Origin: Winogradskyella flava
GTDB taxonomy: Bacteria; Bacteroidota; Bacteroidia; Flavobacteriales; Flavobacteriaceae
NCBI RefSeq assembly: GCF_014243395.1
Contig: NZ_JACLCP010000003.1
Span: 310,001-374,000 of the forward strand
Length of the DNA: 64,000 nt
Direction: 5' to 3'
In this document: positions 6,085 through 24,617 of the stretch, in pieces
How the letters are laid out: the number at the start of each line of letters is the position of its first letter
Position numbering within the stretch: the first letter of the stretch is position 1
The notes under the pieces: model-generated
What the model was told of the DNA's origin: nothing
What the model saw: the letters and a program-made list of their open reading frames with translations, nothing else
Databases searched by the model: none
Translations under genes and position numbers: made by a program

Positions 6085-6128
6085 ATGACAAATGTCATAC
6101 TTTTTACGCTTTATGATAATTAACTTTA
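6085..6128 (+). promoter_or_regulatory. Crp/Fnr-type operator and -7 box upstream of tonB
   Basis: A perfect 14-bp palindrome ATGACAAATGTCAT lies at 6085-6098. After exactly 22 nt comes TAACTTTA at 6121-6128, one base off the Bacteroidota -7 consensus TAnnTTTG. With transcription starting about 5 nt after the box, the operator would be centred near -41.5, the class II activator position. The same layout occurs at three other promoters in this window. Confidence 0.72.
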
Positions 6129-6147
6129 TAATATAAAATTAAACGTC

Positions 6148-6873
6148 ATGGAAGTCAAAAAGAACCCAAAAGCCAATGTAGGTCGAAACAGCAATTTATA
6201 TTTTGCTGTTGGCTTAAACGTAATGTTACTCCTTACATATTTAGGATTAGAACATAAGACTTACGAAACAGAAGCCACTAAGATTGACATCTTAATGTTG
6301 TCAGATCAATTAGAAGAAGACATTCCCATTACAACAATTAATATTCCACCACCACCTCCACCGAAGCAAGTGGTCACAGAAGCTATAACTATTGTAGAAG
6401 ATGTTGAGGAAGTGGAAGAAACTGTAATTGAAAGTACGGAAATAGGACAGGATGATATCATTGAAGAACGCGTGGTAAGTGTGGAGGAAGTAGAAGTGGA
6501 GGAAGTGGAAGAAGATATAGAGGTTCCTTTTGCGGTTATTGAGAAAGTACCACAATTCCCTGGTTGTACTGGTAATAATGATGAACTCAAAGCATGTTTC
6601 CAAAGAAAAATGCAAGAGCACTTACAGAAAAACTTTAGATATCCTGATGCCGCACAAGATCTTAATATTCAGGGAAGAGTATTCGTATTCTTCTTAATAG
6701 ATAAGCACGGTAAGGTATCTAGGATAAAAAGTAGAGGGCCAGATACTCTTTTAGAGACTGAGGCAGAACGTATCATAAGCCTATTGCCAAAAATGGTACC
6801 AGGTAAGCAACGTAACCAACCAGTAGGAGTTCCTTACAGTGTGCCGATCAACTTTAAACTAAGAACACAATAA
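6148..6873 (+). CDS. tonB: TonB-family energy transducer
   Basis: Inner-membrane protein that transmits proton-motive energy to outer-membrane receptors. It has a short cytosolic N-terminus and one transmembrane helix at about 16-34. A proline stretch (IPPPPPPK, about 66-73) precedes a Glu/Val-rich periplasmic spacer. The C-terminal TonB domain runs from about 130 to 241, with the Bacteroidota hallmark EKVPQFPGC and the block YPDAAQDLNIQGRVFVFF. Length is normal. It is monocistronic: a strong terminator follows, and no exbB/exbD is adjacent. An Fnr-type operator upstream suggests it is induced when oxygen falls, which is unusual for tonB. Confidence 0.92.
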   Translation: MEVKKNPKANVGRNSNLYFAVGLNVMLLLTYLGLEHKTYETEATKIDILMLSDQLEEDIPITTINIPPPPPPKQVVTEAITIVEDVEEVEETVIESTEIGQDDIIEERVVSVEEVEVEEVEEDIEVPFAVIEKVPQFPGCTGNNDELKACFQRKMQEHLQKNFRYPDAAQDLNIQGRVFVFFLIDKHGKVSRIKSRGPDTLLETEAERIISLLPKMVPGKQRNQPVGVPYSVPINFKLRTQ

Positions 6874-6917
6874 ACTTAATTTTTTATAAATGGTTTAGAC
6901 TAATTTTTGATTGATGA

Positions 6918-6944
6918 CAAAGCCCCTTTATGAAGGGGTTTTGT
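6918..6944. terminator. Rho-independent terminator, bidirectional
   Basis: A stem CCCCTT/AAGGGG extended by A-rich and T-rich flanks (ACAAAG...TTTTGT) lies between the tonB stop and the stop of the convergent acetyltransferase gene. It probably serves both. Confidence 0.8.
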
Positions 6945-6946
6945 TA

Positions 6947-7474
6947 TTATGCCAATTCGTTTTTTAAAACATACCAATTGCACAAGCTGTTGTCGTAGGT
7001 AAAATTCCCTGAAGGCTGCATCCCTATTTTCTGAAGAATATAATTTGAAGCTAGGTTATTGACATCGGCCGCTGCATAAATCTCTTTCAACTTTAAATCC
7101 TTAAAGCCATAATCTAAGGAGGCTAAGGCCGCTTCAGTAGCATAACCTTTTCTCCAAAAGTCTTCTTTAAGTCTATAGCCTAAATCGTAGTAATTGAATT
7201 CTTGTCGTAATTCACGTTCAAACTTTAAACCAGACCAGCCAATAAATTCCCCAGTATCTTTTTTTATCATAGCTAGTCGACCAATGCCATAGTTTTTATA
7301 TTGTTCTAAAATATCTCGAATCCATGTTTTCGATTGTTCTATGGATGTTACGGGATTGTTACCTAAATATCTGTGAACATTGGGGTTAGAGTCCATTTCA
7401 AAGAAGTCTTGAGCGTCATTTATATTTATAGATCTTAAGATAAGACGTTGAGTTTCTATTGGAGTAAATTTCAT
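6947..7474 (-). CDS. GNAT-family N-acetyltransferase (RimJ/RimL-like)
   Basis: The 175-residue protein has a GNAT fold resembling ribosomal-protein-alanine acetyltransferases. The N-terminal block IETQRLILRSININDAQDFF is typical of the RimJ/RimL (Acetyltransf_3) subgroup. An acetyl-CoA-binding region is visible around YRLKEDFWRKGYATEAA (about residues 105-122), followed by LASLDYGF and the late N-x-A-S-x-x-x-L-x-K-I-G-M motif. It stands alone, convergent with tonB. The substrate is not predictable; small-molecule or protein N-termini are both possible. Confidence 0.87.
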   Translation of the reverse strand: MKFTPIETQRLILRSININDAQDFFEMDSNPNVHRYLGNNPVTSIEQSKTWIRDILEQYKNYGIGRLAMIKKDTGEFIGWSGLKFERELRQEFNYYDLGYRLKEDFWRKGYATEAALASLDYGFKDLKLKEIYAAADVNNLASNYILQKIGMQPSGNFTYDNSLCNWYVLKNELA

Positions 7475-7506
7475 TATAGAATATTATAAGTTTTTTTCTT
7501 ACAATT

Positions 7507-7923
7507 TTATTTGATACGATGGAATGTAATAGAATTTTCAGAACTAAATTCTGTCGGTCTAACTGAATTAAAATCACTAGCAACAATCATCGTATCATTA
7601 CCTTTAAACTCAGCTATCAATAGCATCACTCTTTGTTCATTTGTTGCCAGCTTGGTCATAATTAAATCAATTTCAATTGGCTCGACCTCAAAATTTACTG
7701 AATAACTCATAGAACCCTTTTCTCCATTCATTTCAAATTCTTTGCCACCAAAAGTTTGACCGTCCGTTTCGACTGTAACATAGCTTTCACTATCAAAGAT
7801 TATATAGCCAATTTTATTTTTTTCATCCTCACCCTTCCATTTTCCAACAATACTTTTTTCAATTTGACTTGAATTGAATGAAAACAAAGAAATTAGGGAG
7901 ATTAGAAATAGAATTTTTCTCAT
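7507..7923 (-). CDS. Small secreted protein, lipocalin-like
   Basis: A 138-residue product with a hydrophobic signal sequence (residues 1-19). The mature domain begins with IVGKWKGE, the pattern seen at the start of lipocalin-like domains, and is predicted to be mostly beta strands. No catalytic motif is visible. It lies alone between the acetyltransferase and a thioredoxin-fold gene on the same strand, with gaps of 32 and 69 bp. Function unknown. Confidence 0.72.
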   Translation of the reverse strand: MRKILFLISLISLFSFNSSQIEKSIVGKWKGEDEKNKIGYIIFDSESYVTVETDGQTFGGKEFEMNGEKGSMSYSVNFEVEPIEIDLIMTKLATNEQRVMLLIAEFKGNDTMIVASDFNSVRPTEFSSENSITFHRIK

Positions 7924-7992
7924 TTATATTGAATTTTAATTAATATATAAGGTATCACTTTTTGCAATTTTAGTTATCTAAAAAGGAGTTTG

Positions 7993-8547
7993 TTATTTCC
8001 ACTTAATATTACAACCCATACTCGGTTTTTGATCTAGATTTACTGATTTTCCGGCAATCACAGCATCCATTGCAGCACGTAAATCCTTACCGGTTACAGG
8101 AATACCATTTCCAGGTCTAGAGTCATCTAACTGACCTGCATAAACTAATATTAATTCGCTATCAAATAAAAAGAAATCTGGTGTGCAAGCTGCATCATAG
8201 GCTTTGGCAACCTCCTGGGTCTGATCATATAAATATGGAAAGATATAATGGTGATCAACGGCATTTTGCTTCATTAAATGAGGTGCGTCCTGCGGATAGT
8301 TGTCTATATCGTTACTAGAAATAGCAATGCAGTTGATACCTTTTGCTATGTAATCTTTTGCTAATTGCGATAGTTCAGTATTTACATGTATTACAAAAGG
8401 GCAGTGGTTACAGATAAACATGACTAAGGTGCCTGCTGTTCCTTTTAATTCGTCAAGGGATTTTACTTGGTTGTCCTTGGTGTCTACTAAACTAAAGTCT
8501 GGAGCCTTTGTGCCAAGCGGTAGCATATTGGATGGTGTTAATGCCAT
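7993..8547 (-). CDS. Thioredoxin-fold protein of the AhpC/TSA (peroxiredoxin-like) family
   Basis: A 184-residue cytosolic protein with no signal peptide. The redox centre is FICNHCPFVIH (about residues 44-54), a CxxC motif in the CNHC form rather than thioredoxin CGPC. This CNHCPF form, together with a C-terminal MGCNIKWK block, is characteristic of a bacterial and archaeal group annotated as thioredoxin-family or peroxiredoxin-like. It probably reduces disulphides or peroxides, but the substrate is not established. Monocistronic; the next gene is divergent. Confidence 0.86.
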   Translation of the reverse strand: MALTPSNMLPLGTKAPDFSLVDTKDNQVKSLDELKGTAGTLVMFICNHCPFVIHVNTELSQLAKDYIAKGINCIAISSNDIDNYPQDAPHLMKQNAVDHHYIFPYLYDQTQEVAKAYDAACTPDFFLFDSELILVYAGQLDDSRPGNGIPVTGKDLRAAMDAVIAGKSVNLDQKPSMGCNIKWK

Positions 8548-8572
8548 TATATATCATATTATTAGGTCAATT

Positions 8573-8645
8573 AGGTAGGACGAAGAATCTAATTAAATTT
8601 AAAGTATTTTTGAAGGAGATTTATCGTTGCACTCGAAATGACAGT
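8573..8645. repeat. Degenerate dispersed intergenic repeat
   Basis: Two outward-related arms, GGACGAAGAATCT (from about 8578) and GGAGATTTATCGTTGC (from about 8615), precede CACTCGAAATGACA. This resembles the GAGATT-cTTCG...GAATGACA family of short repeats scattered between genes of Flavobacteriaceae. It lies between divergent genes, immediately upstream of csaA. Assignment to that family is from memory of its pattern, not a search. Confidence 0.45.
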
Positions 8646-8663
8646 TAAGTTGAATTTTTAAAT

Positions 8664-8999
8664 ATGGAAAAGATAATAACATTTGAAGACTTTACAAAGG
8701 TAGATTTACGCGTTGGGACCATTATTGAGGTCAATGATTTTCCGAATGCTAAAAAACCAGCATATCAGCTTGCCATTGATTTTGGTGACTTGGGTATTAA
8801 AAAATCTTCAGCACAAATCACAACACTTTATAAAAAGAAAGATCTATTAAATCGACAGATTATTGCAGTAGTCAACTTTCCTAAAAAGCAAATAGCCAAT
8901 TTCATGAGCGAATGTTTGGTTATGGGTGCCGTAAAAGAAGACGATGTTTTTCTATTACACCCAGAAGCCAAGGTCAAGAATGGTACTCAAGTTTCATAA
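8664..8999 (+). CDS. csaA: tRNA-binding protein CsaA
   Basis: A compact 111-residue protein consisting of a single tRNA-binding (EMAP-like OB-fold) domain. The diagnostic blocks are DLRVGTIIEV near residue 14, SSAQIT near 48 and the C-terminal GAVKEDDVFLLHPE. This matches CsaA, a homodimeric tRNA-binding, chaperone-like protein. Full length for the family. Transcribed alone, and convergent with the M14 peptidase that follows. Confidence 0.92.
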   Translation: MEKIITFEDFTKVDLRVGTIIEVNDFPNAKKPAYQLAIDFGDLGIKKSSAQITTLYKKKDLLNRQIIAVVNFPKKQIANFMSECLVMGAVKEDDVFLLHPEAKVKNGTQVS

Positions 9000-9053
9000 T
9001 TGCAATAACTAAGAATTCTCGATACAATTTTATTTCATAAAATCACTAATCAC

Positions 9054-11561: not shown

Positions 11562-11672
11562 AAATGCTATAGTTTATTAGTTAGAGATTCTTAAATGTTA
11601 ACTTCTAATTCTTGTTTACTTTTAGCAAAGCACAAGAACTGGTCGTAAAATCTATTATTACATTCTATAAAT

Positions 11673-11700
11673 AAAAACCATCAATATAGATGATGGTTTT
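11673..11700 (-). terminator. Rho-independent terminator of sodC
   Basis: Inverted repeat AAAACCATCA / TGATGGTTTT with a short AT-rich loop. Read on the minus strand it is followed by a T-rich run. It lies 24 bp past the sodC stop. Confidence 0.8.
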
Positions 11701-11723
11701 AGGCGTATGTTATAATCTTGAGG

Positions 11724-12305
11724 TTATTCTATAATACCACCACAGCTTATTCTACTGCCAGCAGCACCAGAGGGTTGTGATGTAAAGTCGTCTGAACCTT
11801 GATGAACAATAATTGCTTTCCCTAAAATATCCTTGGTGTCATCTCCACAACCAATACACCATTCATCAGTGGTTATTGTGACAATACCTTGTCCATCTTC
11901 GCCAACTTTAAAATTACCGATATCGCCTTTGTGATAACCAGTTTCTGCACCCCATTTTCCATGAGGTTGAGCAGTAGGATTCCAATGTCCTCCAGAAGAT
12001 TTTCCATCAGGTGACGTACAATCTGCTTTTTCATGTATGTGTATAGCATGTTCGCCCTCGCTCAAAGCAGTTATGTTTGCTGTCATGCTAACAATACCAT
12101 CTTTTTCTTTAAAAGTTACAGCACCTTCAGCATTACTATCGCTTTTAGGAGATAAAGTAATCATCAACTTTTTTTCAGTTGATACTTCTTTTACAACTTC
12201 TTCAACTTCGGTTTCCTTAGTTTCGGTGTTTTCTTTTTTATCGTTTTTACAAGACGTTCCAAGTACTAAAACAAATACTATGGCCACAAGTTTCAAGTTT
12301 TTCAT
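11724..12305 (-). CDS. sodC: Cu/Zn superoxide dismutase, lipoprotein
   Basis: Converts superoxide to peroxide and oxygen in the periplasm or at the cell surface. The N-terminus is a lipoprotein signal (lipobox GTSC), followed by a Lys/Glu-rich linker up to about residue 42. The SodC domain shows the metal-binding pattern HAIHIHE, GGHWNP, GYHKGD and the late IVHQGSDDF, plus C-x-G-C and a final SCGG cysteine for the structural disulphide. It is 193 residues long, as expected for a tethered SodC. It is downstream of a YdeI-like gene on the same strand, with a probable promoter of its own in the 60-bp gap. Confidence 0.95.
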   Translation of the reverse strand: MKNLKLVAIVFVLVLGTSCKNDKKENTETKETEVEEVVKEVSTEKKLMITLSPKSDSNAEGAVTFKEKDGIVSMTANITALSEGEHAIHIHEKADCTSPDGKSSGGHWNPTAQPHGKWGAETGYHKGDIGNFKVGEDGQGIVTITTDEWCIGCGDDTKDILGKAIIVHQGSDDFTSQPSGAAGSRISCGGIIE

Positions 12306-12327
12306 GATCGGTAATTTTAGTTTTTAG

Positions 12328-12358: not shown

Positions 12359-12365
12359 GCAGTGT

Positions 12366-12854: not shown

Positions 12855-12877
12855 TTATATGTGGTTTAGGTATTTGT

Positions 12878-12921
12878 ATGACAAATATCATATTTTTTGC
12901 CGAGGCTTACCATTAATTTTG
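12878..12921 (+). promoter_or_regulatory. Crp/Fnr-type operator and -7 box upstream of hemN
   Basis: The palindrome ATGACAAATATCAT (12878-12891) is followed after exactly 22 nt by TAATTTTG (12914-12921), a perfect TAnnTTTG box. The start of hemN is only 11 nt after the box, so the mRNA leader would be very short (about 7 nt to the first ATG, 13 to the second). Confidence 0.78.
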
Positions 12922-12932
12922 AGTTATAATAA

Positions 12933-14303
12933 ATGCAGATGTGCCAATCTTTAATACATAAATACAACGTGGCTGGCCCACGTTATACTAGTTATCCTAC
13001 GGTTCCATATTGGGATATGAACTCGTTTTCCCTGCAACGGTGGAAAGATTCGTTGAAACGGGCTTTTAATGAATCCAATGACCTTGAAGGATTGAGTCTC
13101 TACTTGCACTTGCCGTATTGTGAAAGTCTCTGTACGTTCTGTGGATGCCACAAGCGCATTACCAAACGTCATGAGGTTGAGTTGCCCTATATAAAGGCAC
13201 TTTTAAAGGAATGGAGTTTATACCGTAAATTATTAGGTGCAAAACCTAAAATAAAGGAATTACATATTGGAGGAGGGACACCTACCTTTTTCTCACCAGA
13301 GAACTTAAGATTTCTAATCACTGAACTGTTGAGGGCGTCTGATATTGTTGAAAGTTATGAGTTTAGTTTTGAAGGTCATCCTAATAATACGACTAAGGCA
13401 CATTTACAAACCTTTTTCGATTTTGGATTTAGACGTGTAAGTTTTGGAGTTCAGGATTACAATATTAAGGTGCAACGTGCTATAAATCGTATTCAACCTT
13501 TCGAAAATGTTAAGAAAGTTACGGAATGGGCGCGTGGTATCGGTTACACTTCAGTGGGTCATGATATTATTTTCGGGCTACCATTTCAAACTGAGACGGA
13601 TGTCATTGAAACCATTGAAAAGACAAAGGAATTAATGCCAGATCGCATAGCCTTTTATAGTTATGCGCATGTGCCTTGGATAAAAGGAAATGGGCAACGC
13701 GGATTTAAGGATGATGATTTGCCATCTGCTGAATCTAAGCGTCGGCAATACGAAACTGGTAAAAGACAGCTTGAAAGTGCAGGTTATGTGGAGATTGGTA
13801 TGGACCATTTTGCACTTAAAAATGATTCATTGTACAAAGCGATGAAAGCAGAAACTTTACATCGTAACTTTATGGGTTATACAGCATCCAAGACTCAAGC
13901 CATGATTGGTTTGGGAGCATCATCTATTAGCGATAGTTGGTATGGTTTTGCCCAGAATGTAAAATCTATTGAGGATTATTATCATCTCGTGGAACAAGGT
14001 ATGATACCAGTGTATCGAGGACATATTCTAAATAAGGAAGACCTCAAGATTAGAAAGCATATCCTTAATCTTATGTGCCATTTCAAAACCAGCTGGTCTG
14101 ATATTGAAATGACTTTTGATGAATTACCTGAAGTCCTCATACAACTAAAAGAATTTGAACAAGACGGTTTAATTAAGTTTGAAACTAAACTATTGACCGT
14201 AACTGAAAAAGGGAAACCTTTTATAAGGAATATATGCATGGCTTTTGATTTGTTATTGCAGCGCAAAAAGCCAGATACGCAATTATTTTCAATGACCATT
14301 TAA
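12933..14303 (+). CDS. hemN: Oxygen-independent coproporphyrinogen III oxidase
   Basis: A radical-SAM enzyme that decarboxylates coproporphyrinogen III to protoporphyrinogen IX without oxygen, a late step of haem synthesis. The N-terminus has the HemN signature GPRYTSYPT. The cluster motif is YCESLCTFCGC (CxxxCxxC plus the extra Cys typical of HemN), followed by HIGGGTPTF and RVSFGVQD. The C-terminal HemN domain is complete, and 456 residues is normal. The ATG at 12933 or the one at 12939 could be used. An Fnr-type operator precedes it, fitting induction at low oxygen when cbb3 oxidase needs haem. uspA-like gene follows after 10 bp. Confidence 0.95.
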   Translation: MQMCQSLIHKYNVAGPRYTSYPTVPYWDMNSFSLQRWKDSLKRAFNESNDLEGLSLYLHLPYCESLCTFCGCHKRITKRHEVELPYIKALLKEWSLYRKLLGAKPKIKELHIGGGTPTFFSPENLRFLITELLRASDIVESYEFSFEGHPNNTTKAHLQTFFDFGFRRVSFGVQDYNIKVQRAINRIQPFENVKKVTEWARGIGYTSVGHDIIFGLPFQTETDVIETIEKTKELMPDRIAFYSYAHVPWIKGNGQRGFKDDDLPSAESKRRQYETGKRQLESAGYVEIGMDHFALKNDSLYKAMKAETLHRNFMGYTASKTQAMIGLGASSISDSWYGFAQNVKSIEDYYHLVEQGMIPVYRGHILNKEDLKIRKHILNLMCHFKTSWSDIEMTFDELPEVLIQLKEFEQDGLIKFETKLLTVTEKGKPFIRNICMAFDLLLQRKKPDTQLFSMTI

Positions 14304-14313
14304 AACAATTAAA

Positions 14314-15147
14314 ATGAAAAAAATTATAGTACCTGTAGACTTTTCTGAACATTCAGAATATGCTTTAGAAGCTGCAGCTAGTATTGCCAAGAAGTATGAC
14401 TCTGAGCTTATTGTCTTGCACATGCTGGAACTATCGAATGCTATCATAACCGCAGATAATGAATCCCTTAATGAAGAAGCTGTTTTTTACTTAAAACTTG
14501 CCGAGCAAAAGTTTGAGAAGTTTTTAGAGAAACCATTTTTAGAAGGAATTAAAATCACACCTATAGTAAAACATTTTAAGGTGTGGAGTGAAGTGAATGA
14601 TATCGCTAACCAGCATCATGCAAATCTTATAGTTATGGGTTCACATGGTGTAAGTGGTGTTAAGGAAGTTTTGGTAGGATCTAATACTGAGAAAGTGGTC
14701 CGTCATGCAGACATACCTGTTTTGGTTATAAAACATAACCCAATTCTTTTGGATTTTGAAAACGGCGTCTTTGCAAGTGATTTTTCTGAAGAGGCCATTA
14801 CACCTTACCTTAATGCAAGAGCAACTTTTAAAAAGATAGGTGCTAAGATGCATTTGGTTTATGTTAACTCACCAGACGGTAACTTTAGAAGTTCTTTGGA
14901 AATTGACAAACGTGTATCCCTATTTCTTAAGAAAGCTGACGGCAACCTAAATAACCTAGGGAACGTACACGTCGTGTCTGATTATTCTATTGAAAAGGGT
15001 ATTTTGAATTTTGCCAATGTTATTGGTGCAGATTTGATCGCAGTTGCTACACATGGCAGAAAGGGTCTAGCACATTTCTTTGAAGGTAGTATTTCTGAAG
15101 ACATTGCTAATCATTCAACATTACCTGTAATGACTTTTAAAATATAG
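14314..15147 (+). CDS. Tandem universal stress protein (UspA family)
   Basis: A 277-residue cytosolic protein with two Usp domains (about 1-140 and 150-277). The first carries an ATP-binding motif of the G-2x-G-9x-G(S/T) type (GSHGVSGVKEVLVGS...). The second has the related THGRKGLAHFFEGS. It starts 10 bp after hemN and very likely shares its Fnr-controlled transcript. A link between universal stress proteins and oxygen limitation is known in other bacteria. The exact target is unknown. Confidence 0.92.
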   Translation: MKKIIVPVDFSEHSEYALEAAASIAKKYDSELIVLHMLELSNAIITADNESLNEEAVFYLKLAEQKFEKFLEKPFLEGIKITPIVKHFKVWSEVNDIANQHHANLIVMGSHGVSGVKEVLVGSNTEKVVRHADIPVLVIKHNPILLDFENGVFASDFSEEAITPYLNARATFKKIGAKMHLVYVNSPDGNFRSSLEIDKRVSLFLKKADGNLNNLGNVHVVSDYSIEKGILNFANVIGADLIAVATHGRKGLAHFFEGSISEDIANHSTLPVMTFKI

Positions 15148-15743: not shown

Positions 15744-16445
15744 TTAATGACACTCAATAGCACTAGAAGCCATTTCAACTATTGGAGCAGGTGAGAGGTA
15801 AGGAATACCCAACCCCAAACCACGAAGAATGAACAACACTCCAATAATGATTACGAATACAGGAATGGCTTTTTGGATACGTTGTTTAATGGCTTGATTT
15901 AAAAATTTACCTAAGTATATAGCTGAGGTCATTAATGGTATGGTACCTATACCAAACAGTATCATATAAAAACTACCTTGAACTAAACTTCCAGTAGCCA
16001 CGGCACCGAAAACAGCCATATAGACTAAGCCACAAGGTAAAAATCCATTTAAGAACCCAATGGTTAAAAAGGTGTCAGCGGTCTTTTTCTTTAGCGCTTG
16101 CCCAAGATTGGACTTTACTTTGGAGATGATCTTATTTAGTGGTTTGGATAAATTATACTTTCCTAAGGTTTTGTATGGAATGAGCACCAAAAGAATCATG
16201 AGTATACCTATGGCAATAGATAATTGTTGTTGAATGCCAAAGATGTAAAGACTCCTGCCAACCAATCCAAATACCAATCCGATGATGCTATAAGCCAATA
16301 ATCTGCCAAAGTGATAGATACTGATTTGACTTACTTTTTTAAAGCTATTTGAACGATCGACTGGTAACATAAAGGCGATTGGTCCGCACATACCAACACA
16401 ATGCAAACTTCCTAATAGACCTAATATGAAAGCAGAGATTAACAT
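15744..16445 (-). CDS. TauE/SafE-family (UreH-like) membrane protein of the cbb3 assembly locus
   Basis: A 233-residue polytopic membrane protein with about six helices. The first helix contains GSLHCVGMCGP, a conserved Cys-x-x-x-Cys patch; a second conserved patch is FLPCGLVYMA. This is the signature of the SafE/UreH-like group that sits at the end of cco clusters, where it is generally thought to move copper or another metal, or to help haem-copper oxidase assembly. The start lies 1 bp from the ccoH stop, so it is tightly co-translated. Substrate unproven. Confidence 0.88.
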   Translation of the reverse strand: MLISAFILGLLGSLHCVGMCGPIAFMLPVDRSNSFKKVSQISIYHFGRLLAYSIIGLVFGLVGRSLYIFGIQQQLSIAIGILMILLVLIPYKTLGKYNLSKPLNKIISKVKSNLGQALKKKTADTFLTIGFLNGFLPCGLVYMAVFGAVATGSLVQGSFYMILFGIGTIPLMTSAIYLGKFLNQAIKQRIQKAIPVFVIIIGVLFILRGLGLGIPYLSPAPIVEMASSAIECH

Positions 16446-16446: not shown

Positions 16447-16893
16447 TTAATACATTATTTCCTTTTTGTAGAGATAGGAATTTCCTTTGTATGTCCAGTC
16501 TATTTTAATGTTCCATCGACCATCTAACAAACGCTTGTCAGGTATGAGCAAATTGCGACTAGACAACGAAATTGGCATTTCGAGATCTAGGTGTTTATTA
16601 GATGGTCTGTATAGGAACACTTTGCCTTCAATAGCTTTGATGTCTAAATCTTTTGGGAATTCAATGACAATACCATCCTTAGTTTTTTTCCATGATAAAT
16701 TAGCCTCTAATGATTTGGAGTTGGTTTCCTTGTCAATATCTTTTTGAAACTTCAACTCTTGTTGATAGTAATCTTCAACCACTAGATCATGATTGTACTT
16801 GTCATCCGTAGCCATGCTAATAACAAAGTACAAGATAAAGCCAATAAAGCCTACAAATGCTATGATGATTGCTGTTCCCCAATTAATTTTCAT
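16447..16893 (-). CDS. ccoH: CcoH/FixH-like cbb3 oxidase assembly protein
   Basis: A single-pass membrane protein with a periplasmic FixH domain, required for stable cbb3 oxidase in other bacteria. I start it at 16893 (MKINWGTAI...), which puts the membrane helix at about residues 5-27. An in-frame ATG at 16926 would add 11 residues and run into a dispersed repeat. The helix is followed by DDKYNHDLVVEDYYQQE, a block typical of FixH, and a beta-sandwich of about 90 residues. Located between ccoG and the TauE/SafE-like gene. Confidence 0.88.
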   Translation of the reverse strand: MKINWGTAIIIAFVGFIGFILYFVISMATDDKYNHDLVVEDYYQQELKFQKDIDKETNSKSLEANLSWKKTKDGIVIEFPKDLDIKAIEGKVFLYRPSNKHLDLEMPISLSSRNLLIPDKRLLDGRWNIKIDWTYKGNSYLYKKEIMY

Positions 16894-16904
16894 ATCAAAA
16901 TATT

Positions 16905-16956
16905 TTGTCATCCTGAACTGTTGCACTGAGCGTGTCGAAGTGTTGTTTCAGGATCT
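16905..16956. repeat. Dispersed inverted repeat between ccoG and ccoH
   Basis: Arms ATCCTGAAC (16910-16918) and GTTTCAGGAT (16944-16953) surround a region with an inner CACT/AGTG pairing. The outer sequence, GTCATCCTGAAC...GTTTCAGGATCT, is the pattern of a short repeat found between many flavobacterial genes. Inside the cco transcript it would form an RNA hairpin and could affect mRNA processing. Family assignment is by recollection of its pattern. Confidence 0.6.
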
Positions 16957-16972
16957 TATTATTGATTCTTTA

Positions 16973-18397
16973 TTAGTTATAGTTCCTTGGCCCTAAAAAG
17001 CCAACGGTAGTCGTTTCAATTAGCTCATCATGACTATAAACATCTATTCTTAGTTTATTTTTATCGGCAGATAAATTGCTTTGCTTCATTTCTATGAACA
17101 ATGTACCTTCTGCTATGCCTTGAGCTTCAATTTTAAATTCGTCTGTTACTGAGACTAGTTTTATTTCACCCTCAGCACCTCTTATTTTAAAACTCACATT
17201 TTCAATACTGTTGGCGGTCTTATTTACGAGTTTATAGGTATATACATTACTAATTATATTGTTCTCTTTTTGCTCATAGGATTGACCAGGTAATCTTAAA
17301 ATGCGTGCTTCGACATCATTTCTTAGTGCAAGCATTCCGGCCAAGACCCCAATTAAAATAACCAATACGGCAATATAACCTTTCATTCTAGCGGTAAGTT
17401 TGAAAGGTGTTTTCTTTTTTATATTTTCTTCACTAGCATATCGGATTAATCCTTTAGGAAGATTGATCTTTTCCATAATAGTGTCACACTCATCAATACA
17501 AGCTGTGCAATTTACGCACTCTAGTTGAGTACCGTTTCTTATATCGATGCCTGTTGGACATACATGTACGCACTGAAAGCAATCTATACAATCACCATGG
17601 CCAAGAGCAGCTCTATCTTCGTTTTTTCTAAACTTTTTTCTTCCACTTTCCCCTTCTCCTCGTTTATGGTCATAGGCAACAACAATGGACTTCGTATCTA
17701 AGAGTACACCTTGCAAACGTCCATAAGGACAGGCTATGATGCATACTTGTTCCCTAAACCAAGCAAAAACAAAGTAGAAGACTCCTGTAAAAATGAGTAA
17801 AGGGATTAAAGTACCCATATGCTCAAATGGTCCATCCGTTATATAGTTCAATAGTTCGTCACCACCTATTAAATACGCTAAGAAGACATTGGCAATTAAA
17901 AATGATACTACTAAAAAGATAAACCATTTTAAAAGACGCTTTCTTATTTTTTCGGCATCCCATTTTTGTCGTTTTAGGCGCATTTGCTTATTTCTGTCAC
18001 CATCAATCCAATATTCAATGCGTCTAAATACCATTTCCATAAAGATGGTCTGTGGACAAATCCAGCCACAGAATATCCGACCGAATCCTACTGTGAATAG
18101 TGTGATGAATACAACACCAATTATCATGGAAATCACAAACAAATGGAAGTCTTGCGGCCAGAAAGGAAAACTGAATATATTGAATCGTCGTTCTAAAACA
18201 TTAAATAATAGGAACTGGTTGCCATTAATCTTCACGAAAGGCGCAGCAAATAGAAAGGCTAATAATATATAGCTTACTAGTTTTCGCTTTTCGTAAAAAT
18301 AACCTGCAGGTTTTTTAGGAAATATCCAATTGCGTTTACCTTCTTCATCGATGGTGCCAATGGAATCTCTAAAAACTTCGTTTGATGGCGTTTCCAT
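16973..18397 (-). CDS. ccoG: Cytochrome c oxidase accessory protein CcoG (FixG-like)
   Basis: A 474-residue membrane protein with several helices and polyferredoxin-type cysteine motifs, reported to act as a cupric reductase during cbb3 assembly. Visible blocks: CGWICPQTIFME, CIIACPYGRLQG, and two ferredoxin-like clusters CIDCFQCVHVCP and CVNCTACIDEC. A further helix near 340-360 precedes an Ig-like C-terminal domain. Length and motif order match CcoG. It lies 34 bp downstream of ccoP and is part of the ccoS-NOQPGH transcript. Confidence 0.96.
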   Translation of the reverse strand: METPSNEVFRDSIGTIDEEGKRNWIFPKKPAGYFYEKRKLVSYILLAFLFAAPFVKINGNQFLLFNVLERRFNIFSFPFWPQDFHLFVISMIIGVVFITLFTVGFGRIFCGWICPQTIFMEMVFRRIEYWIDGDRNKQMRLKRQKWDAEKIRKRLLKWFIFLVVSFLIANVFLAYLIGGDELLNYITDGPFEHMGTLIPLLIFTGVFYFVFAWFREQVCIIACPYGRLQGVLLDTKSIVVAYDHKRGEGESGRKKFRKNEDRAALGHGDCIDCFQCVHVCPTGIDIRNGTQLECVNCTACIDECDTIMEKINLPKGLIRYASEENIKKKTPFKLTARMKGYIAVLVILIGVLAGMLALRNDVEARILRLPGQSYEQKENNIISNVYTYKLVNKTANSIENVSFKIRGAEGEIKLVSVTDEFKIEAQGIAEGTLFIEMKQSNLSADKNKLRIDVYSHDELIETTTVGFLGPRNYN

Positions 18398-18431
18398 TTT
18401 GGAACAGTTTACTATTTACTTGTTGGTGCGT

Positions 18432-19421
18432 TTAGTCATTTGAGACTACAGAAGTAGCTTCCTCGGTCTTAACAGTATCTTCCATTGATTCTTCTTCTGT
18501 GTTTTCGTCAATAGCATCAGACTCAGTTTCAGTAGCAGATTCGTCTACCCAAATTTCACCTTCAGCTTTTTTAGCACCATCACCTGGTACCGTGCCTTGA
18601 AATTCTAAAACATAACTGGCAACTTGTGCCATTTCCAGTGGTGTTAGCCCTTCTTTTTTCCATGACACCATACCTTTACCATCACGACCACCTTCAGAGA
18701 TTGTTCTAAAGACATTTTTAATACCACCACCTAAAATCCAATATTCGTCCGTTAGGTTTGGTCCAATTCCACCGCCACCATCATTTCTATGGCAAACAAC
18801 ACATTTACCTTCATAAATAGCTTTTCCCGCATTTAAGTCAGATGCTTCAGTCAGAATTTCAACAGTATTTGCATCCACAAGATTTTTTGCATTTTTCTTG
18901 TATTCTTCAATGGCTTTATTGGCTTCGGCATATTCTATTTCGTATTCTGTAAATTGGCCATCGGCATTCAAAACATGGTAACGGATCATATACACAACAC
19001 CAAATATTATGGTTAAATAGAAACTATATACCCACCATGGTGGCAAATTGTTGTCTAATTCTTTAATGCCGTCATAATTATGGTCTAAAATAATTTCACC
19101 CTCGTCCTCAATAGGTTTACTACCAACCAGTTTTTTGTAGGTGTTACTAATCCATTCGGCTAATTTAGATGGTGCTGCTTTTTTTGCATCATATCTTGCC
19201 TTGGCTTCTTCGTCTAAACTTTGATATAAGATATTATCCATTGAGCCCACGATGCCCTCAATAGCTAGAAGTACAAGCAGCACTAATAGCAAGAACAAAA
19301 GGACGACTGGCTGCTCCATAAATGCAGGCTGATCACCAGATTCGATAAAGTATTCTACGAGACCTACTATGGCTAAAAACACGACAGGCACTCTTATGTA
19401 TGATGGAATTAAATGTCTCAT
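18432..19421 (-). CDS. ccoP: cbb3 oxidase subunit CcoP with a single haem-c site
   Basis: Membrane-anchored cytochrome c subunit that feeds electrons to CcoO/CcoN. Two N-terminal helices (about 8-26 and 38-58), a cytosolic loop and a third helix (about 130-148) come before the periplasmic cytochrome domain. Only one haem motif is present, CVVCH at residues 207-211, with a probable axial Met in GKGMVSWKK. Proteobacterial CcoP has two haems. The tail after about residue 290 is acidic. The extended N-terminus looks like an extra membrane module fused in front of the usual CcoP helix. Confidence 0.93.
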   Translation of the reverse strand: MRHLIPSYIRVPVVFLAIVGLVEYFIESGDQPAFMEQPVVLLFLLLVLLVLLAIEGIVGSMDNILYQSLDEEAKARYDAKKAAPSKLAEWISNTYKKLVGSKPIEDEGEIILDHNYDGIKELDNNLPPWWVYSFYLTIIFGVVYMIRYHVLNADGQFTEYEIEYAEANKAIEEYKKNAKNLVDANTVEILTEASDLNAGKAIYEGKCVVCHRNDGGGGIGPNLTDEYWILGGGIKNVFRTISEGGRDGKGMVSWKKEGLTPLEMAQVASYVLEFQGTVPGDGAKKAEGEIWVDESATETESDAIDENTEEESMEDTVKTEEATSVVSND

Positions 19422-19506
19422 TTGATAGATGTTTTAATTTTTTTAAGCGGACAAATGTAACCTGCACGCCCATTAATAATAAAGACTGAAAATATTGATG
19501 CAGGTT

Positions 19507-19692
19507 TCATGATAATGTATCGTTTTGATTATCTAATGGTAAATTACTAACAGTAGTGATGTATTCTTTTTTCGCTGTTATGACCCAATAAAATAAGGCT
19601 ATAAAAAAGACAAAGAATATAAGTAGCGATATCAAAGGATAGATTTCTATACCAGTGATACTTTCCATGTGATTTTTTACAAATTTTAGCAT
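19507..19692 (-). CDS. ccoQ: CcoQ-like small subunit of cbb3 oxidase
   Basis: A 61-residue protein with one membrane helix (about 18-42) bearing YPLISLLIFFVFFIALFYWV and a short polar tail. Size, helix placement and position between ccoNO and ccoP identify it as CcoQ, which stabilises the oxidase. It starts 4 bp after the ccoNO stop. Confidence 0.87.
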   Translation of the reverse strand: MLKFVKNHMESITGIEIYPLISLLIFFVFFIALFYWVITAKKEYITTVSNLPLDNQNDTLS

Positions 19693-19696
19693 AATA

Positions 19697-21901
19697 TTAT
19701 TGGTTTTGAGCGGTTTCTTTAGCTATATCTTTCACCTTTATATCTGTTCCTAATCGTTGCAAATATGCAATTAGAGCAATGATTTCTCTGTCTTTCATTT
19801 CAACATAATCTTCACCAGCAGCTAAAGCTTCTTGTTTATTTCTTTCGAAAGATTCTGCTAAATCAGGATCCTCTACAAGACTTTTTACAATGGCTTCTGA
19901 TTGTACATTCATTAAATCCTGAGCGTTTGCTATCTCCTCTTCGGTATAAGGAACACCTAGTGATACCATAACTTCCATCTTCTTTTCTGTCATTGATTTA
20001 TCTAGTTCATCTCTGATTAGCCACTGATATGCAGGCATTATAGAACCTGTAGACATCTGTTGTGGATCATACATATGTTTAAAGTGCCATGAATCTAAAT
20101 ACTTACCACCAACACGATGTAAATCTGGACCAGTTCTTTTACTTCCCCAAAGGAAAGGATGGTCATAAACAAATTCACCTGCCTTGGAATATTCGCCATA
20201 ACGTTCTACCTCACTTCTAAATGGACGAACCATTTGTGAATGACAGCCAACACAACCCTCTCTAATGTACAGGTCACGTCCCTCTAATTCTAATGGTGTA
20301 TAAGGTTGTACACTACTTATGGTTGGAATATTGGATTTAACAACTATCGTTGGGATAATCTGAACGATACCTCCAATTAAGATGGCTACAGTTGCATATA
20401 TCGTTAATAATACAGGCTTACGTTCTAACCAAGTGTGCCATCCCTCTCCGGCAACTCTACGTTTAGATACTCTCTGTAACGCTGGTGCTTCTGCCAGTTC
20501 ATCCGTGACTTTAGAATTAGATCTTACTACGGTCATGATAACATTATAAACCAGAATTAGCATACCAGTAATGTAGAGTGTACCTCCAATGGCTCTCATC
20601 CAGTACATTGGCATTATTTCGGTTACGGTCTCTAAAAAGTTACCGTAAAATAAGTTACCGTCTGGTCTAAATTGTTTCCACATACTGGCTTGAGTGAAAC
20701 CAGCGACGTACATTGGCAATGCATATAAGATAATACCCAAAGTGCCTATCCAAAAATGGACGTTAGCCAAGCCAACAGAGTGTAATTTAGTTTTGAATAA
20801 CCTTGGTATTAACCAGTAAATCATACCAAACGCCAAGAATCCATTCCATGCCAGTGCGCCAACATGTACGTGCGCAATAATCCAATCGGTAAAGTGCGCA
20901 ATGGCGTTGACATTTTTAAGGGATAGCATAGGTCCTTCAAATGTTGCCATACCATAACCTGTTATGGCTACAACCATGAATTTTAAAACAGGATCTGTAC
21001 GTACTTTGTCCCAAGCACCACGTAAGGTTAATAGACCATTTATCATACCTCCCCAAGAAGGCGCAATTAACATTACAGAGAAAGCAACACCTAAATGCTG
21101 TGCCCATTCTGGCAATGCCGTATATAATAAATGGTGAGGTCCCGCCCAGATGTATATAAAGATTAATGACCAGAAATGTACTATAGATAGCCTGTAGGAA
21201 TAAACAGGTCTATTAGCTGCTTTTGGTACGAAATAGTACATTAAGCCAAGGAAAGGTGTTGTTAAGAAAAATGCAACGGCATTGTGTCCATACCACCATT
21301 GCACTAAGGCATCTTGTACACCTGCATAAACCGAGTAGCTTTTTAAACTACTTACAGGTAATTCTAAACTATTAAAAATATGAAGCACTGCAACCGTAAC
21401 AAAAGTTGCGAGATAGAACCAAATAGCGACATACAAGTGACGTTGACGACGTTTTAAAATCGTTCCAATCATATTAATACCAAAAGCTACCCATATAAGT
21501 GCAATGGCAATATCAAAAGGCCATTCTAGCTCCGCATATTCTTTTGAGGTAGTATAACCTAACGGTAAAGTAATTGCAGCGCCGACAATAAGCAATTGCC
21601 AAGCCCAGAAATTAAAATTACTCAAAAGGTCACTGAACATTCTAGCTTTTAGCAGACGTTGTAATGAGTAATAAACTCCGGCAAAAATGGCATTACCAAC
21701 AAAAGCAAAGATTACTGCGTTAGTGTGTAGCGGTCTTAATCGTCCAAAACTTAACCATGATACACCATCGGTCATATTTGGGAATAAAAACATAAAGGCC
21801 AGAATAAGACCTACAAGCATCCCAACAACTCCCCAAAGTATGGTTGCGTAAAGGAATTTTTTAACGATTTTATTATCGTAATAGAATTGTTGCATTTCCA
21901 T
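19697..21901 (-). CDS. ccoNO: Fused cbb3 oxidase subunits CcoN-CcoO
   Basis: A single 734-residue polypeptide. Residues of about 1-460 form CcoN, the catalytic subunit with 12 helices. His59 (RPLHT) and His346 are candidate low-spin haem ligands; His206 (WYGHNA) with His256/His257 (GPHH) are candidate CuB ligands; His344 is the candidate high-spin haem ligand. After a linker, residues of about 490-734 form CcoO, with one anchor helix near 500-518 and haem site CVGCH at 550-554. Reduces oxygen to water with high affinity while pumping protons. This fusion is known in Bacteroidota. The start may be Met1 or Met3. Confidence 0.96.
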   Translation of the reverse strand: MEMQQFYYDNKIVKKFLYATILWGVVGMLVGLILAFMFLFPNMTDGVSWLSFGRLRPLHTNAVIFAFVGNAIFAGVYYSLQRLLKARMFSDLLSNFNFWAWQLLIVGAAITLPLGYTTSKEYAELEWPFDIAIALIWVAFGINMIGTILKRRQRHLYVAIWFYLATFVTVAVLHIFNSLELPVSSLKSYSVYAGVQDALVQWWYGHNAVAFFLTTPFLGLMYYFVPKAANRPVYSYRLSIVHFWSLIFIYIWAGPHHLLYTALPEWAQHLGVAFSVMLIAPSWGGMINGLLTLRGAWDKVRTDPVLKFMVVAITGYGMATFEGPMLSLKNVNAIAHFTDWIIAHVHVGALAWNGFLAFGMIYWLIPRLFKTKLHSVGLANVHFWIGTLGIILYALPMYVAGFTQASMWKQFRPDGNLFYGNFLETVTEIMPMYWMRAIGGTLYITGMLILVYNVIMTVVRSNSKVTDELAEAPALQRVSKRRVAGEGWHTWLERKPVLLTIYATVAILIGGIVQIIPTIVVKSNIPTISSVQPYTPLELEGRDLYIREGCVGCHSQMVRPFRSEVERYGEYSKAGEFVYDHPFLWGSKRTGPDLHRVGGKYLDSWHFKHMYDPQQMSTGSIMPAYQWLIRDELDKSMTEKKMEVMVSLGVPYTEEEIANAQDLMNVQSEAIVKSLVEDPDLAESFERNKQEALAAGEDYVEMKDREIIALIAYLQRLGTDIKVKDIAKETAQNQ

Positions 21902-21911
21902 ATGAAAAAAA

Positions 21912-22097
21912 TTAGTCAGTTTTAGTATGTGTTGATTGTTCAGTTTCTGATTTCACTAGTTCATCTTCAAAAAGCATGCGCACTGATGGTGTATAGCTAT
22001 CATCGTATTGACCAGACTTTACCGCCGCGATAAATATGAAAAAGAAAGCTACGCCAACAATGACGCTAACCGTTAATAAAATATATATAACACTCAT
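21912..22097 (-). CDS. ccoS: CcoS, cbb3 oxidase maturation protein
   Basis: A 61-residue single-helix membrane protein (helix about 3-26) with the conserved CcoS block SGQYDDSYTPSVRMLFED. CcoS is needed for cofactor insertion into CcoN in other bacteria. It is the first gene of the structural transcript, 10 bp before ccoNO, and is separated from the upstream ccoI by 74 bp holding an Fnr-type promoter. Confidence 0.95.
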   Translation of the reverse strand: MSVIYILLTVSVIVGVAFFFIFIAAVKSGQYDDSYTPSVRMLFEDELVKSETEQSTHTKTD

Positions 22098-22117
22098 ACC
22101 TGTTTGAAGTTATGGTT

Positions 22118-22161
22118 CAAATTTACTGTTGAACCTTTTTTTAAAACATGACATTTATCAT
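22118..22161 (-). promoter_or_regulatory. Crp/Fnr-type operator and -7 box upstream of ccoS-NOQPGH
   Basis: On the minus strand the palindrome ATGATAAATGTCAT (22148-22161) is followed after exactly 22 nt by TAAATTTG (22118-22125), a perfect -7 box, 20 nt before the ccoS start codon. It gives the oxidase operon a promoter separate from ccoI. Confidence 0.8.
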
Positions 22162-22171
22162 GTTGATTTAT

Positions 22172-24547
22172 TTATTTCAATCGTCGACCCAAAATATTAG
22201 TACAAACCGTTGTAAATACTACAATACTTATAGAACTCAATGGCATTAATATAGCTGCAACGACCGGTGCTAAATGACCGGTAACTGCAAAGTATAAACC
22301 AATAATATTATAGATGAATGAAAGCAGGAAGCTCCATTTTATAATCTTTATGGCCGATTTCGAAGCTTTGATATACGGATACAATTCCTTGAATTTAGTG
22401 GCATCCAATATGGCATCGCAAGCTGGTGAAAAAACATTTACGTCTTCTGATATTGCAATACCAACATCGCTTTGTGCTAAAGCGCCAGCATCGTTTAAAC
22501 CATCACCTATCATTAACACTTTGGCACCTTCCGACTGGTGGTATTTGATAAACTCTAACTTATCCTCTGGTTTTTGGTTAAATATTAATTTGGTCTTAGA
22601 TGGCAATAGTTTTTTTAGATTCTCGCGTTCGCCTTCATTGTCACCAGAGAGAATTACTAAGTCAAATTGCTCTTTAAGTTGGTTGAATAATTTTGAAACC
22701 CCTTTTCTATAGCTATTATAAAAAGTGAACTTGCCCTTATATACATTATTACTACTAATATGGACGGTTGTATTTAGGACAGATGTATTTTCTAGATTGC
22801 CAACAAAGCTTGCCGAACCAATCCTTAAGTTCACATCCTCATGTCCCGCTTCAATACCTTTGCCAATATGCTCATCAAACCTATCGAGACTTATAATATT
22901 ATGTTCGTCTAGAATGCTGTAAAGTGTTCTGCTTAAAGGATGGTTGGAACCACGAAGCGAATTCTTGAGCACTAAACTTTCGGAATCCGACAAAGATTCA
23001 CCATCATATTCCGCATTGCAATTTTTATTGGAGGTGATCGTTCCCGTTTTGTCGAAAATAATCGTATTGATTTGGGCTAATTGTTCAATCACACAGGCAT
23101 TCTTAATATAGAATTTAAGCTTTCCAAAAATCCGCAATAAATTGCCAAACGTAAATGGAGCAGATAAGGCAATGGCACAAGGACACGCAATAATTAGTAC
23201 TGCCGTAAACACGTTTAAAGCCTTACTGGCATCTGTGAATAACCAAAATGTTGTTGCTATAGCTGCAATTGTTAAAATCGCAATAGTGAAGTGTTTACTA
23301 ATGTTGTTGGTAATTGTTGTAAAACCATCTTCTTTATTCTTGTTGAAGACATCATTGCTCCAAAGTTGCGTGAGGTAACTTTGTTCAACAGATTTGATCG
23401 CTTCAAGTTCAATAACACCTGCTGTTTGTTTGCCGCCAGCGAATAACTTATCCCCAGAGTGTTTGGATACGGTCTGCGATTCACCTGTAACAAAACTGTA
23501 ATCTATTTTAGCTTTGCCATTAATGAGGATGCCGTCCACAGGAATCAATTCTTCATTTCTGATCAAGAGTCGATCTCCTTTTTTTATATCGTAAACTTGA
23601 ATGGAATTCTCATTACCATTCTTATCAATTTTAGTGATTGCAATCGGAAAGTATGATTTGTAATCACGCTCAAAGGATAAGAAATCATAGGTTTTTTGTT
23701 GAAAGAACTTTCCAACCAATAAGAAGAATACCAACCCAGCCAAACTATCGAAAAAACCAGAACCAAGGTCCAACATAATCTCAATAGTACTTCTAATAAA
23801 CAGCACGGAAACCCCAAGAGCGATAGGTACATCGATATTCAATAACTTCGCTTTTAAGCCTTTATATGCTGAAATAAAATAGTCTTGAGCTGAATAAAAT
23901 ACCACTGGTACAGTAAGCACAAACATTAACCACCTAAATAGCGGTTTATATTGCTCTAACCAAAATTCATTGACCTCAAAATATTCAGGAAAGGATAGAA
24001 ACATAATATTACCAAATCCAAATCCAGCTACTCCGAGTTTATAGATTAAGGTTCTGTTAATGTGTTTTTTTCCTGATTTAAAATCGTCTAAGCTAATATA
24101 TGGCTCATAACCTATAGAGCTTAACAATAAGACAATAGACTTTAAGTCGGTTGCTTCAGGGTTATAAGTTACCCTAACCGTTTTCTTTCCAAAGTTGACC
24201 TGGGAATCTGAAATTTTTGGATTGAGTTTGTTTAGGTTTTCGAGTATCCAAATACAAGAGCTGCAATGGATATGAGGAATATAGAGCGTAGTGATTTCTA
24301 TGCTATCACTTCTAAATTCGGTAAGTTTTTCAATTATATTTTGCTGTGATAGAAAATCGTATTTACCCTCTATTTCTTTTGGAATGGCACCTGGTGAGCT
24401 CTGTAAATCGTAGTAACAAGTTAAATCATTTTCGTTAAAAATTTCGAAAACAGTTTTACAGCCATTACAACAAAAGGACTTCTCTTGATATCTAATAGTG
24501 TGATTGCCACAGCCATCACCACAATGAAAACAAGTGTTGTTTTGCAT
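22172..24547 (-). CDS. ccoI: Copper-translocating P1B-type ATPase CcoI (FixI)
   Basis: Polytopic ATPase of 791 residues that exports copper to the periplasm for cbb3 oxidase assembly. The N-terminus has a Cys-rich FixI-type zinc-ribbon (CFHCGDGC, then CCNGCKTVF). An HMA domain carries CSSCIWIL at about 90-110. The membrane domain has eight helices with the CPC ion-binding motif in IACPCAIALSAP. Catalytic blocks are DKTGT (phosphorylated Asp), HPLS and GDGLNDAGAL. It is divergent from the Fnr-like regulator and shares an operator with it. Confidence 0.96.
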   Translation of the reverse strand: MQNNTCFHCGDGCGNHTIRYQEKSFCCNGCKTVFEIFNENDLTCYYDLQSSPGAIPKEIEGKYDFLSQQNIIEKLTEFRSDSIEITTLYIPHIHCSSCIWILENLNKLNPKISDSQVNFGKKTVRVTYNPEATDLKSIVLLLSSIGYEPYISLDDFKSGKKHINRTLIYKLGVAGFGFGNIMFLSFPEYFEVNEFWLEQYKPLFRWLMFVLTVPVVFYSAQDYFISAYKGLKAKLLNIDVPIALGVSVLFIRSTIEIMLDLGSGFFDSLAGLVFFLLVGKFFQQKTYDFLSFERDYKSYFPIAITKIDKNGNENSIQVYDIKKGDRLLIRNEELIPVDGILINGKAKIDYSFVTGESQTVSKHSGDKLFAGGKQTAGVIELEAIKSVEQSYLTQLWSNDVFNKNKEDGFTTITNNISKHFTIAILTIAAIATTFWLFTDASKALNVFTAVLIIACPCAIALSAPFTFGNLLRIFGKLKFYIKNACVIEQLAQINTIIFDKTGTITSNKNCNAEYDGESLSDSESLVLKNSLRGSNHPLSRTLYSILDEHNIISLDRFDEHIGKGIEAGHEDVNLRIGSASFVGNLENTSVLNTTVHISSNNVYKGKFTFYNSYRKGVSKLFNQLKEQFDLVILSGDNEGERENLKKLLPSKTKLIFNQKPEDKLEFIKYHQSEGAKVLMIGDGLNDAGALAQSDVGIAISEDVNVFSPACDAILDATKFKELYPYIKASKSAIKIIKWSFLLSFIYNIIGLYFAVTGHLAPVVAAILMPLSSISIVVFTTVCTNILGRRLK

Positions 24548-24573
24548 TTTTATTTGCTCATTTATACCTGTAA

Positions 24574-24617
24574 CAAAGGTGACATATAAGCTCGTTTTAA
24601 AATATGATATTTGTCAT
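24574..24617 (-). promoter_or_regulatory. Crp/Fnr-type operator and -7 box upstream of ccoI
   Basis: On the minus strand the palindrome ATGACAAATATCAT (24604-24617) is followed after exactly 22 nt by CACCTTTG (24574-24581), one base off TAnnTTTG. The spacing equals that at tonB, hemN and ccoS. The start codon is 26 nt further on. Confidence 0.68.

Follow-up and report, generated by a model that had tools for sequence, protein, structure and literature searches.

An FNR-like regulator and operators at a fixed distance from the promoter box: a proposed low-oxygen regulon in Winogradskyella flava

FNR of Escherichia coli and Aliivibrio fischeri serves low-oxygen targets from a 14-bp dyad with a TGA core at the class II position, centred at -41.5, and the cluster cysteines of the E. 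coli protein are C20, C23, C29 and C122. The alphaproteobacterial FixK/FixK2 regulon covers hemN along with cbb3 oxidase and the genes for assembling it. The FixK2 gene is itself auto-repressed (PMC9104804), and HcpR2, a Crp/Fnr regulator inferred from comparative genomics, has been reported in Bacteroides and Porphyromonas gingivalis (PMC1274295). Here we analyzed a 64,000-nt stretch of the Winogradskyella flava genome (contig NZ_JACLCP010000003.1, positions 310,001 to 374,000; hereafter the window), which encodes a Crp/Fnr regulator and carries the palindrome ATGAY-N4-RTCAT ahead of tonB, hemN-usp, ccoS-NO and ccoI. Our analysis makes it likely that this FNR-like regulator binds ATGAY-W4-RTCAT and acts from -41.5 as a class II activator under low oxygen, with a divergent switch between ccoI and its own gene.

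Comparison with the described systems indicated that the logic is known in kind. Like FNR, the window regulator has the Crp/Fnr fold, cysteines that line up with those of A. fischeri FNR (the N-terminal CxxC pair C4 and C7, and further on C106), a 14-bp dyad with a TGA core, a predicted class II position and low-oxygen targets. Unlike FNR, its half-site is ATGAY, so that the operator departs from TTGAT-N4-ATCAA; it has no cysteine at the third place and does not reproduce the spacing of the four cluster cysteines; Val208 and Ser212 of E. coli FNR are replaced by T190 and I194; and the NCBIfam Fnr model scores 86.6 bits versus a cut-off of 228. We regard it as FNR-like rather than FNR proper on account of the operator and the third-ligand position. 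The targets also resemble those of FixK/FixK2, but the N-terminal cysteines, the Bacteroidota promoter type and a score of 59.8 bits against a cut-off of 300 for the Caulobacter-type FixK model set the two apart. HcpR and HcpR2, likewise Crp/Fnr regulators inferred by comparative genomics, are described with hcp as target and with the motifs TTGACnnnnGTCAA and GTAACnnnnGTTAC (PMC1274295), in contrast to ATGAY here; the HcpR2 pairing of GTAACnnnnGTTAC with hcp was not found, as the motif differs and hcp is not named in the subset of genes scanned. The best Protein Data Bank sequence match, and second by fold, is the P. gingivalis Crp/Fnr-family protein 2gau, whose helix SNAIRTLS shares x-I-R; identity in the fold alignment is 28%, and the sequence match begins at residue 36, leaving the N-terminal cysteines uncovered. 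The operator is not described in the titles and abstract openings listed by searches of open-licence literature. As far as we found, the operator, the promoter spacing, the cysteine set and an apparent exchange of sensors are new.

Operators and promoter boxes in the window and the genome

The pattern ATGAYNNNNRTCAT matched the window exactly four times (Table 1), at the very positions listed in a first-pass annotation and nowhere else. Dinucleotide shuffles of the window (100) gave a mean of 0.48 matches, and one of the 100 reached four. With one mismatch permitted, 18 palindromes were present versus a mean of 12.75, a near-chance count that points to the importance of the strict form. Direct reading of the sequence placed a -7 box exactly 22 nt away on the gene-ward side of all four palindromes, two boxes matching TAnnTTTG exactly and two with one mismatch, just as the annotation had written. 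Judged by how often boxes with no more than one mismatch occur at other spacings, their presence at a single fixed gap on four or more of the eight window flanks has P ~1.4e-6, or ~8e-5 once 60 possible gaps are allowed for.

The whole genome (3.85 Mb, 10 contigs) was searched with the reversed pattern as control, yielding 41 palindromes versus 18, and 14 versus 5 for those with an A/T-only centre. Boxes with at most one mismatch stood at gap 22 on 9 of the 82 flanks of the 41 palindromes, compared with a mean of 0.98 and a maximum of 4 at other gaps, and exact boxes occurred three times at gap 22 and never more than once at any other gap. Excluding the window left a gap-22 box on 5 of 74 flanks versus 0.93 expected (P 0.0025). 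The annotation's count of four members proved too small: four more promoters of the genome, each just before a gene, are arranged in this way with a box that has one mismatch or none (Table 1). Given these promoters and the targets in relatives, a private four-gene regulon was dropped. The ninth gap-22 flank, C1:573179, lies within a reading frame and was taken as chance.

Looser candidates were also recorded. Two box mismatches mark C1:72088, upstream of a cytochrome c gene, as well as C1:380622 and C1:518606; C8:191967 has gap 21 and precedes a gene of the malate/lactate dehydrogenase family; and C1:973434 and C5:17715 combine one palindrome mismatch with an exact box.

In Flavobacterium psychrophilum the TAnnTTTG box is reported at -12 to -5 (PMC9723704). 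A gap of 22 nt relative to that published position puts the operator at -48 to -35 and its centre at -41.5, from which the class II placement given in the first-pass annotation follows as a predicted geometry. In a composition table of 67 promoters, chosen for exact half-sites and box, the operator centre is A/T, with C and G each at or below 3%, and a T run occupies -33 to -30; TTTG has been described in the -33 to -30 region of Bacteroides promoters (PMC7366714). The two imperfect boxes are themselves conserved, with the first T missing from 73 of 74 ccoI boxes in relatives and a final A in the tonB box of 24 of 24 genus orthologues. Promoters kept weak without their activator would explain these departures.

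Two further features were noted beside these promoters. The ccoI leader AGGTATAAWTGAGCAAAT (24552-24569, minus strand) begins at the predicted transcript start, and GAGCAA recurs in 68 of 73 leaders of relatives. A different dyad, TTGAYWTAGGTCAA, also lies 22 nt upstream of TAnnTTTG in six genomes (G013, G014, G028, G033, G049 and G083), where it perhaps marks a second regulator with the same geometry.

Table 1. Operators, predicted promoter elements and genes of the window, with further same-layout sites of the W. flava genome (given as contig:position)
Feature	Position	Strand	Remarks
Operator of tonB	6085..6098	.	palindrome match; gap 22
tonB -7 box TAACTTTA	6121..6128	+	gap 22; predicted start 6133
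TonB-family protein gene	6148..6873	+	TIGR01352 25.5 bits, just below cut-off 27.1
Operator of hemN-usp	12878..12891	.	palindrome match; gap 22
hemN -7 box TAATTTTG	12914..12921	+	gap 22; predicted start 12926
hemN and universal stress protein gene	12933..15147	+	profile matches
ccoP, ccoG and FixH (ccoH) gene, after ccoNO	16447..19421	-	profile matches
ccoNO, fused cbb3 oxidase subunits	19697..21901	-	ccoS immediately upstream, ATG 22097
ccoS -7 box TAAATTTG	22118..22125	-	gap 22; predicted start 22113
Operator of ccoS-NO and downstream genes	22148..22161	.	palindrome match; gap 22
ccoI, copper-type P-type ATPase	22172..24547	-	NCBIfam heavy-metal/copper ATPase matches, below cut-offs of specific models
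ccoI -7 box CACCTTTG	24574..24581	-	gap 22; predicted start 24569
Shared operator, ccoI (-) / regulator gene (+)	24604..24617	.	palindrome match
Regulator's own -7 box TATCTTTG	24626..24633	+	gap 8; predicted operator centre -27.5
FNR-like Crp/Fnr regulator, 225 aa	24656..25333	+	cNMP_binding and HTH_Crp_2
Further site, CBS-domain protein	C1:1197926	.	gap-22 layout
Further site, CitMHS/TrkA_C permease	C6:294988	.	gap-22 layout
Further site, 116-aa protein	C9:76809	.	gap-22 layout
Further site, 49-aa protein	C9:95405	.	gap-22 layout

A DsbD_2-family membrane protein gene (15744-16445, minus strand) lies directly 3' of the FixH gene in the cco cluster.

Conservation of the layout and its coupling to Crp/Fnr proteins

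Locus surveys of relatives (29-locus, 80-locus, distant, and tonB and 49-aa sets) accepted a relaxed outer half-site base. The closest named relatives are 26 Winogradskyella loci with regulator identity of 79-91%; the 80-locus set contains best matches only, 26 of them named Winogradskyella, and its loci are not independent. Sites of all four genes named in the first-pass annotation recur. On the ccoI side, gap 22 was found in 74 of 78 operators, which came from 76 of the 80 named loci; the ccoS operator stands at gap 22 in 71 of 77 loci of the same set, tonB has its gap-22 site in 23 of 24 genus orthologues (own included), and hemN is preceded by one in 7/7 other genomes read. The tonB-type site was found in 0/6 loci possessing a paralogue only. 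In the 30-locus set, of which 29 loci were read (L074 left out) and 26 had an operator, ccoI-side gap 22 was universal (26/26). For distant orthologues, 22 of 27 loci were parsed (L287, L288, L289, L294 and L296 left out); 18 had an operator, and the far-side gap was 22 in 15.

The spacing was then surveyed across 100 genomes of the family, with an orthologue threshold of >200 bits separating 57 positive genomes (own and 56 others) from 43 negative ones; gap lengths, per-genome gap-22 counts and table sums are manual tallies from the search tables. When the gap was allowed to range from 12 to 32 nt, the pattern occurred in 57/57 positive genomes, with 335 matches versus 30 for the reversed control, and gap 22 accounted for 119 of 150 among the matches listed (31/57 genomes), other gaps averaging 1.55 each. 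In a search that allowed any outer half-site base, TCA was followed by T in 110, by G in 20, by C in 12 and by A in 8 of 150 among the matches listed (12/25 genomes). A TTGAY form gave only 20 matches in 13/57 orthologue-positive genomes and was dropped as the operator. Beyond the family, the exact gap-22 pattern was present in 96 of 247 genomes of a class sample, 240 of which come from other families, and the reversed control returned 3 matches. In G017, G037, G034, G082 and G063, single palindromes are flanked left and right by boxes 22 nt away (or 22 and 23), an arrangement that looks like a divergent promoter pair served by one operator.

Among the 43 genomes lacking the orthologue, matches occurred in 30 (total 108 versus 20 for the control, with gap 22 in 73/108), showing that the operator is not private to the orthologue and ruling out sites that depend on it alone. 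Gap-22 sites are coupled to the presence of some Crp/Fnr homologue: the 14 of 43 genomes without any (E 0.001) had one site in total and the 29 with another homologue had 72, a difference also found per Mb (Mann-Whitney P 3.7e-5), with the homologue-free genomes mostly small and the five of at least 2.2 Mb together holding one gap-22 site.

The other homologue appears in many cases to be a receiver fusion. Of the 43 genomes without the orthologue, at least 20 contain Crp/Fnr relatives in ~350-aa frames; the three that were scanned combine receiver, cNMP_binding and HTH_Crp_2, and the helices of the 15 that were read follow A(T/S/P)E(S/T)xIR, similar to that of the window regulator. Six stretches from fusion-bearing genomes held gap-22 sites before hemN, ccoNO, cytochrome c-like and Usp-like genes, as well as before the genes of a small membrane peptide and of one protein without a name, these targets being named mostly by likeness to proteins of the target survey and not by domain scan. 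In three genomes (L308, L309 and L310) the palindrome lies 22 nt past the stop codon of the receiver-Crp/Fnr gene. A fusion was ruled out for W. flava, where the frames around all four PF13545 places measure 203-228 aa and could not hold one. Taken over the whole class, we see an even chance that Bacteroidia share one promoter grammar, ATGAY-W4-RTCAT, 22 nt and TAnnTTTG, read by interchangeable sensors (a small Crp/Fnr protein with the unusual invariant cysteines C4, C7, C53 and C106 or, where it is missing, a receiver fusion that serves similar targets in its place), in which a gap of 8 or 22 nt to the sensor gene's own box would set self-repression or self-activation.

The regulator, its own promoter and its targets

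Domain analysis of the regulator identified PF00027 (cNMP_binding, 66.3 bits) and PF13545 (HTH_Crp_2, 52.6 bits), the combination of cNMP_binding fold and Crp-type helix-turn-helix that defines the Crp/Fnr superfamily. Foldseek assigned its AlphaFold model (mean pLDDT 79, pTM 0.62) to the Crp/Fnr fold; the leading matches included both CRP-like structures and FNR, and did not separate FNR from CRP. C4, C7, C53, C106, E191, I194 and R195 are invariant in 124/124 distinct orthologues, which bears out the annotated regulator with Glu191 and Arg195; C29 is kept in 104 and C59 in 112 of the 124. Position 13, the place of the third N-terminal ligand of FNR, holds Asn in 121 orthologues and Ser in the other 3. 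A cysteine-bound cluster with an unusual ligand, perhaps C53, may be envisaged, and oxygen sensing through such an Fe-S cluster (C4, C7, C106 and a fourth ligand unlike that of FNR) is the least certain part of our proposal.

Among the three readable Crp/Fnr proteins of the genome, the regulator alone has the E-x-x-I-R helix. Within that helix, we take Thr190 to be the equivalent of CRP residue 180. Covariation in the Crp/Fnr family ties the outer half-site base to the residue at this CRP-180 position (PMC1274295), so Ile194 is at best one candidate, and the Ser-to-Ile change put forward in the first-pass annotation to account for ATGAY in place of TTGAT lacks support in the form in which it was given.

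On its other side, the operator at 24604-24617 is separated by 8 nt from the TATCTTTG box of the regulator gene, a feature absent from the earlier annotation. Centred at -27.5, a bound operator should block RNA polymerase and thereby cause autorepression, and the same operator probably controls the regulator gene as well as ccoI. The regulator-side gap was 8 in 24 of the 26 operators of the 29 loci read, and 8 in 67 and 9 in 8 of the 78 operators of the 80-locus set. Among the 18 operators of distant orthologues it was 8 in 5 and 22 in 5, and a regulator-side gap of 22 would mean self-activation.

To define the targets, 40 gap-22 promoters from seven genomes were surveyed, one member per repeated group being scanned and the rest grouped by BLAST. 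Recurrent targets were ccoNO (7/7), hemN (7/7), a Thioredoxin_9 protein (6/7) and cytochrome c (4/7); PFL, Pta, NirK, NosL, NadA, Usp, Rrf2, a thioredoxin-reductase-like protein and a cytochrome c were seen once or twice, and several targets carry no family name. Judged by these families, the content fits oxygen limitation (cbb3 oxidase, hemN, thioredoxin-like proteins, cytochromes, NirK, NosL and PFL). Expression of cbb3 oxidase and haem genes is reported to rise under oxygen limitation in F. psychrophilum, in a paper whose main text on that species nowhere mentions Fnr/Crp (PMC9723704). The 49-aa peptide L341 (C9:95473-95619), apparently a single membrane segment, has a gap-22 operator and matches in 33/100 family genomes; of 30 loci examined, 15 have retained the operator. 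A gap-22 site also lies upstream of a Usp-like gene in L257 and L307.

Together, these observations suggest a mechanism in which the 24656-25333 product would bind ATGAY-W4-RTCAT and, from -41.5, act under oxygen shortage as a class II activator of the main RNA polymerase. Activation would raise ccoS-NO and the genes that follow, ccoI, hemN-usp, a TonB and several genes elsewhere, while at 24604-24617 the operator, sitting at -27.5 on the regulator promoter, would block the regulator's own transcription. The result would be a divergent switch, with ccoI activated and the regulator limited.

Competing explanations and biological meaning

Several observations weigh against this mechanism. The signal of the genome outside the window is modest (5/74 flanks versus 0.93), and when as many as two mismatches were tolerated, the complete pattern matched 26 times on one strand and 24 on the other, compared with 15 and 11 for the reversed control. 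The autorepression layout is not universal, given a regulator-side gap of 22 in six loci (including L099) and of 9, 10, 18 or 20 in others. Within the stretches searched, the fnr-ccoI operator was not found in 4/80, 3/29 and 4/22 loci, nor the ccoS site in 6/77. In addition, the regulator has no cysteine at the third-ligand place of FNR, and sites persist in 30/43 genomes without the orthologue.

That relaxed matching brings counts close to controls is what a chance effect of an AT-rich genome would predict for the spacing, but the gap-22 peak across 57 genomes, the window and genome statistics and the conserved sites contradict chance; with one shuffle in 100 reaching four matches and 9/82 flanks at gap 22 versus 0.98, we ruled it out, and its probability is negligible. 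It is also quite improbable that a protein of the same DNA specificity other than the 24656-25333 product, in relatives possibly the receiver fusion, acts at these operators. Same-layout sites in 30/43 orthologue-free genomes, at least 20 of which have ~350-aa related frames, together with the similar recognition helices of the 15 fusions, speak for such a protein; the HTH_Crp_2 frames of W. flava are too short for a fusion, the helices of the two other readable proteins differ, and the operator adjoins the regulator gene in 76/80 loci.

More serious, though still unlikely, is a regulator that acts at these sites but whose signal is not oxygen read by an Fe-S cluster; nitric oxide, thiol oxidation or a metal are examples of what it might sense instead. 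Asn or Ser at the third-ligand place in 124/124 orthologues and the denitrification genes NirK and NosL among relatives' targets are in keeping with this idea, whereas the invariance of C4, C7 and C106, their alignment with FNR cysteines, and core targets consisting of oxidase and haem genes that rise under oxygen limitation in F. psychrophilum (PMC9723704) favor oxygen. A rather improbable variant holds that the regulator-side box at 8 nt is non-functional, by chance or through an unrelated role, leaving the regulator without autoregulation. The shifts of that gap to 22, 9, 10, 18 or 20 nt in some loci would suit it, and the start site of the regulator gene is here a prediction from sequence; against it, gap 8 is kept in 24/26 and 67/78 operators, many of them from close relatives. 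We continue to favor an FNR-like activator that responds to low oxygen and limits its own synthesis.

Regulatory sites are little known in Bacteroidota, whose promoters are unlike the E. coli type. A fixed distance between operator and box offers a simple, testable rule, one that names candidate low-oxygen genes from sequence, including unnamed small membrane proteins. The case is also one in which two sensor proteins apparently use a single operator. Since the layout recurs in many relatives, it could aid the finding of low-oxygen genes in genomes not yet studied by experiment.

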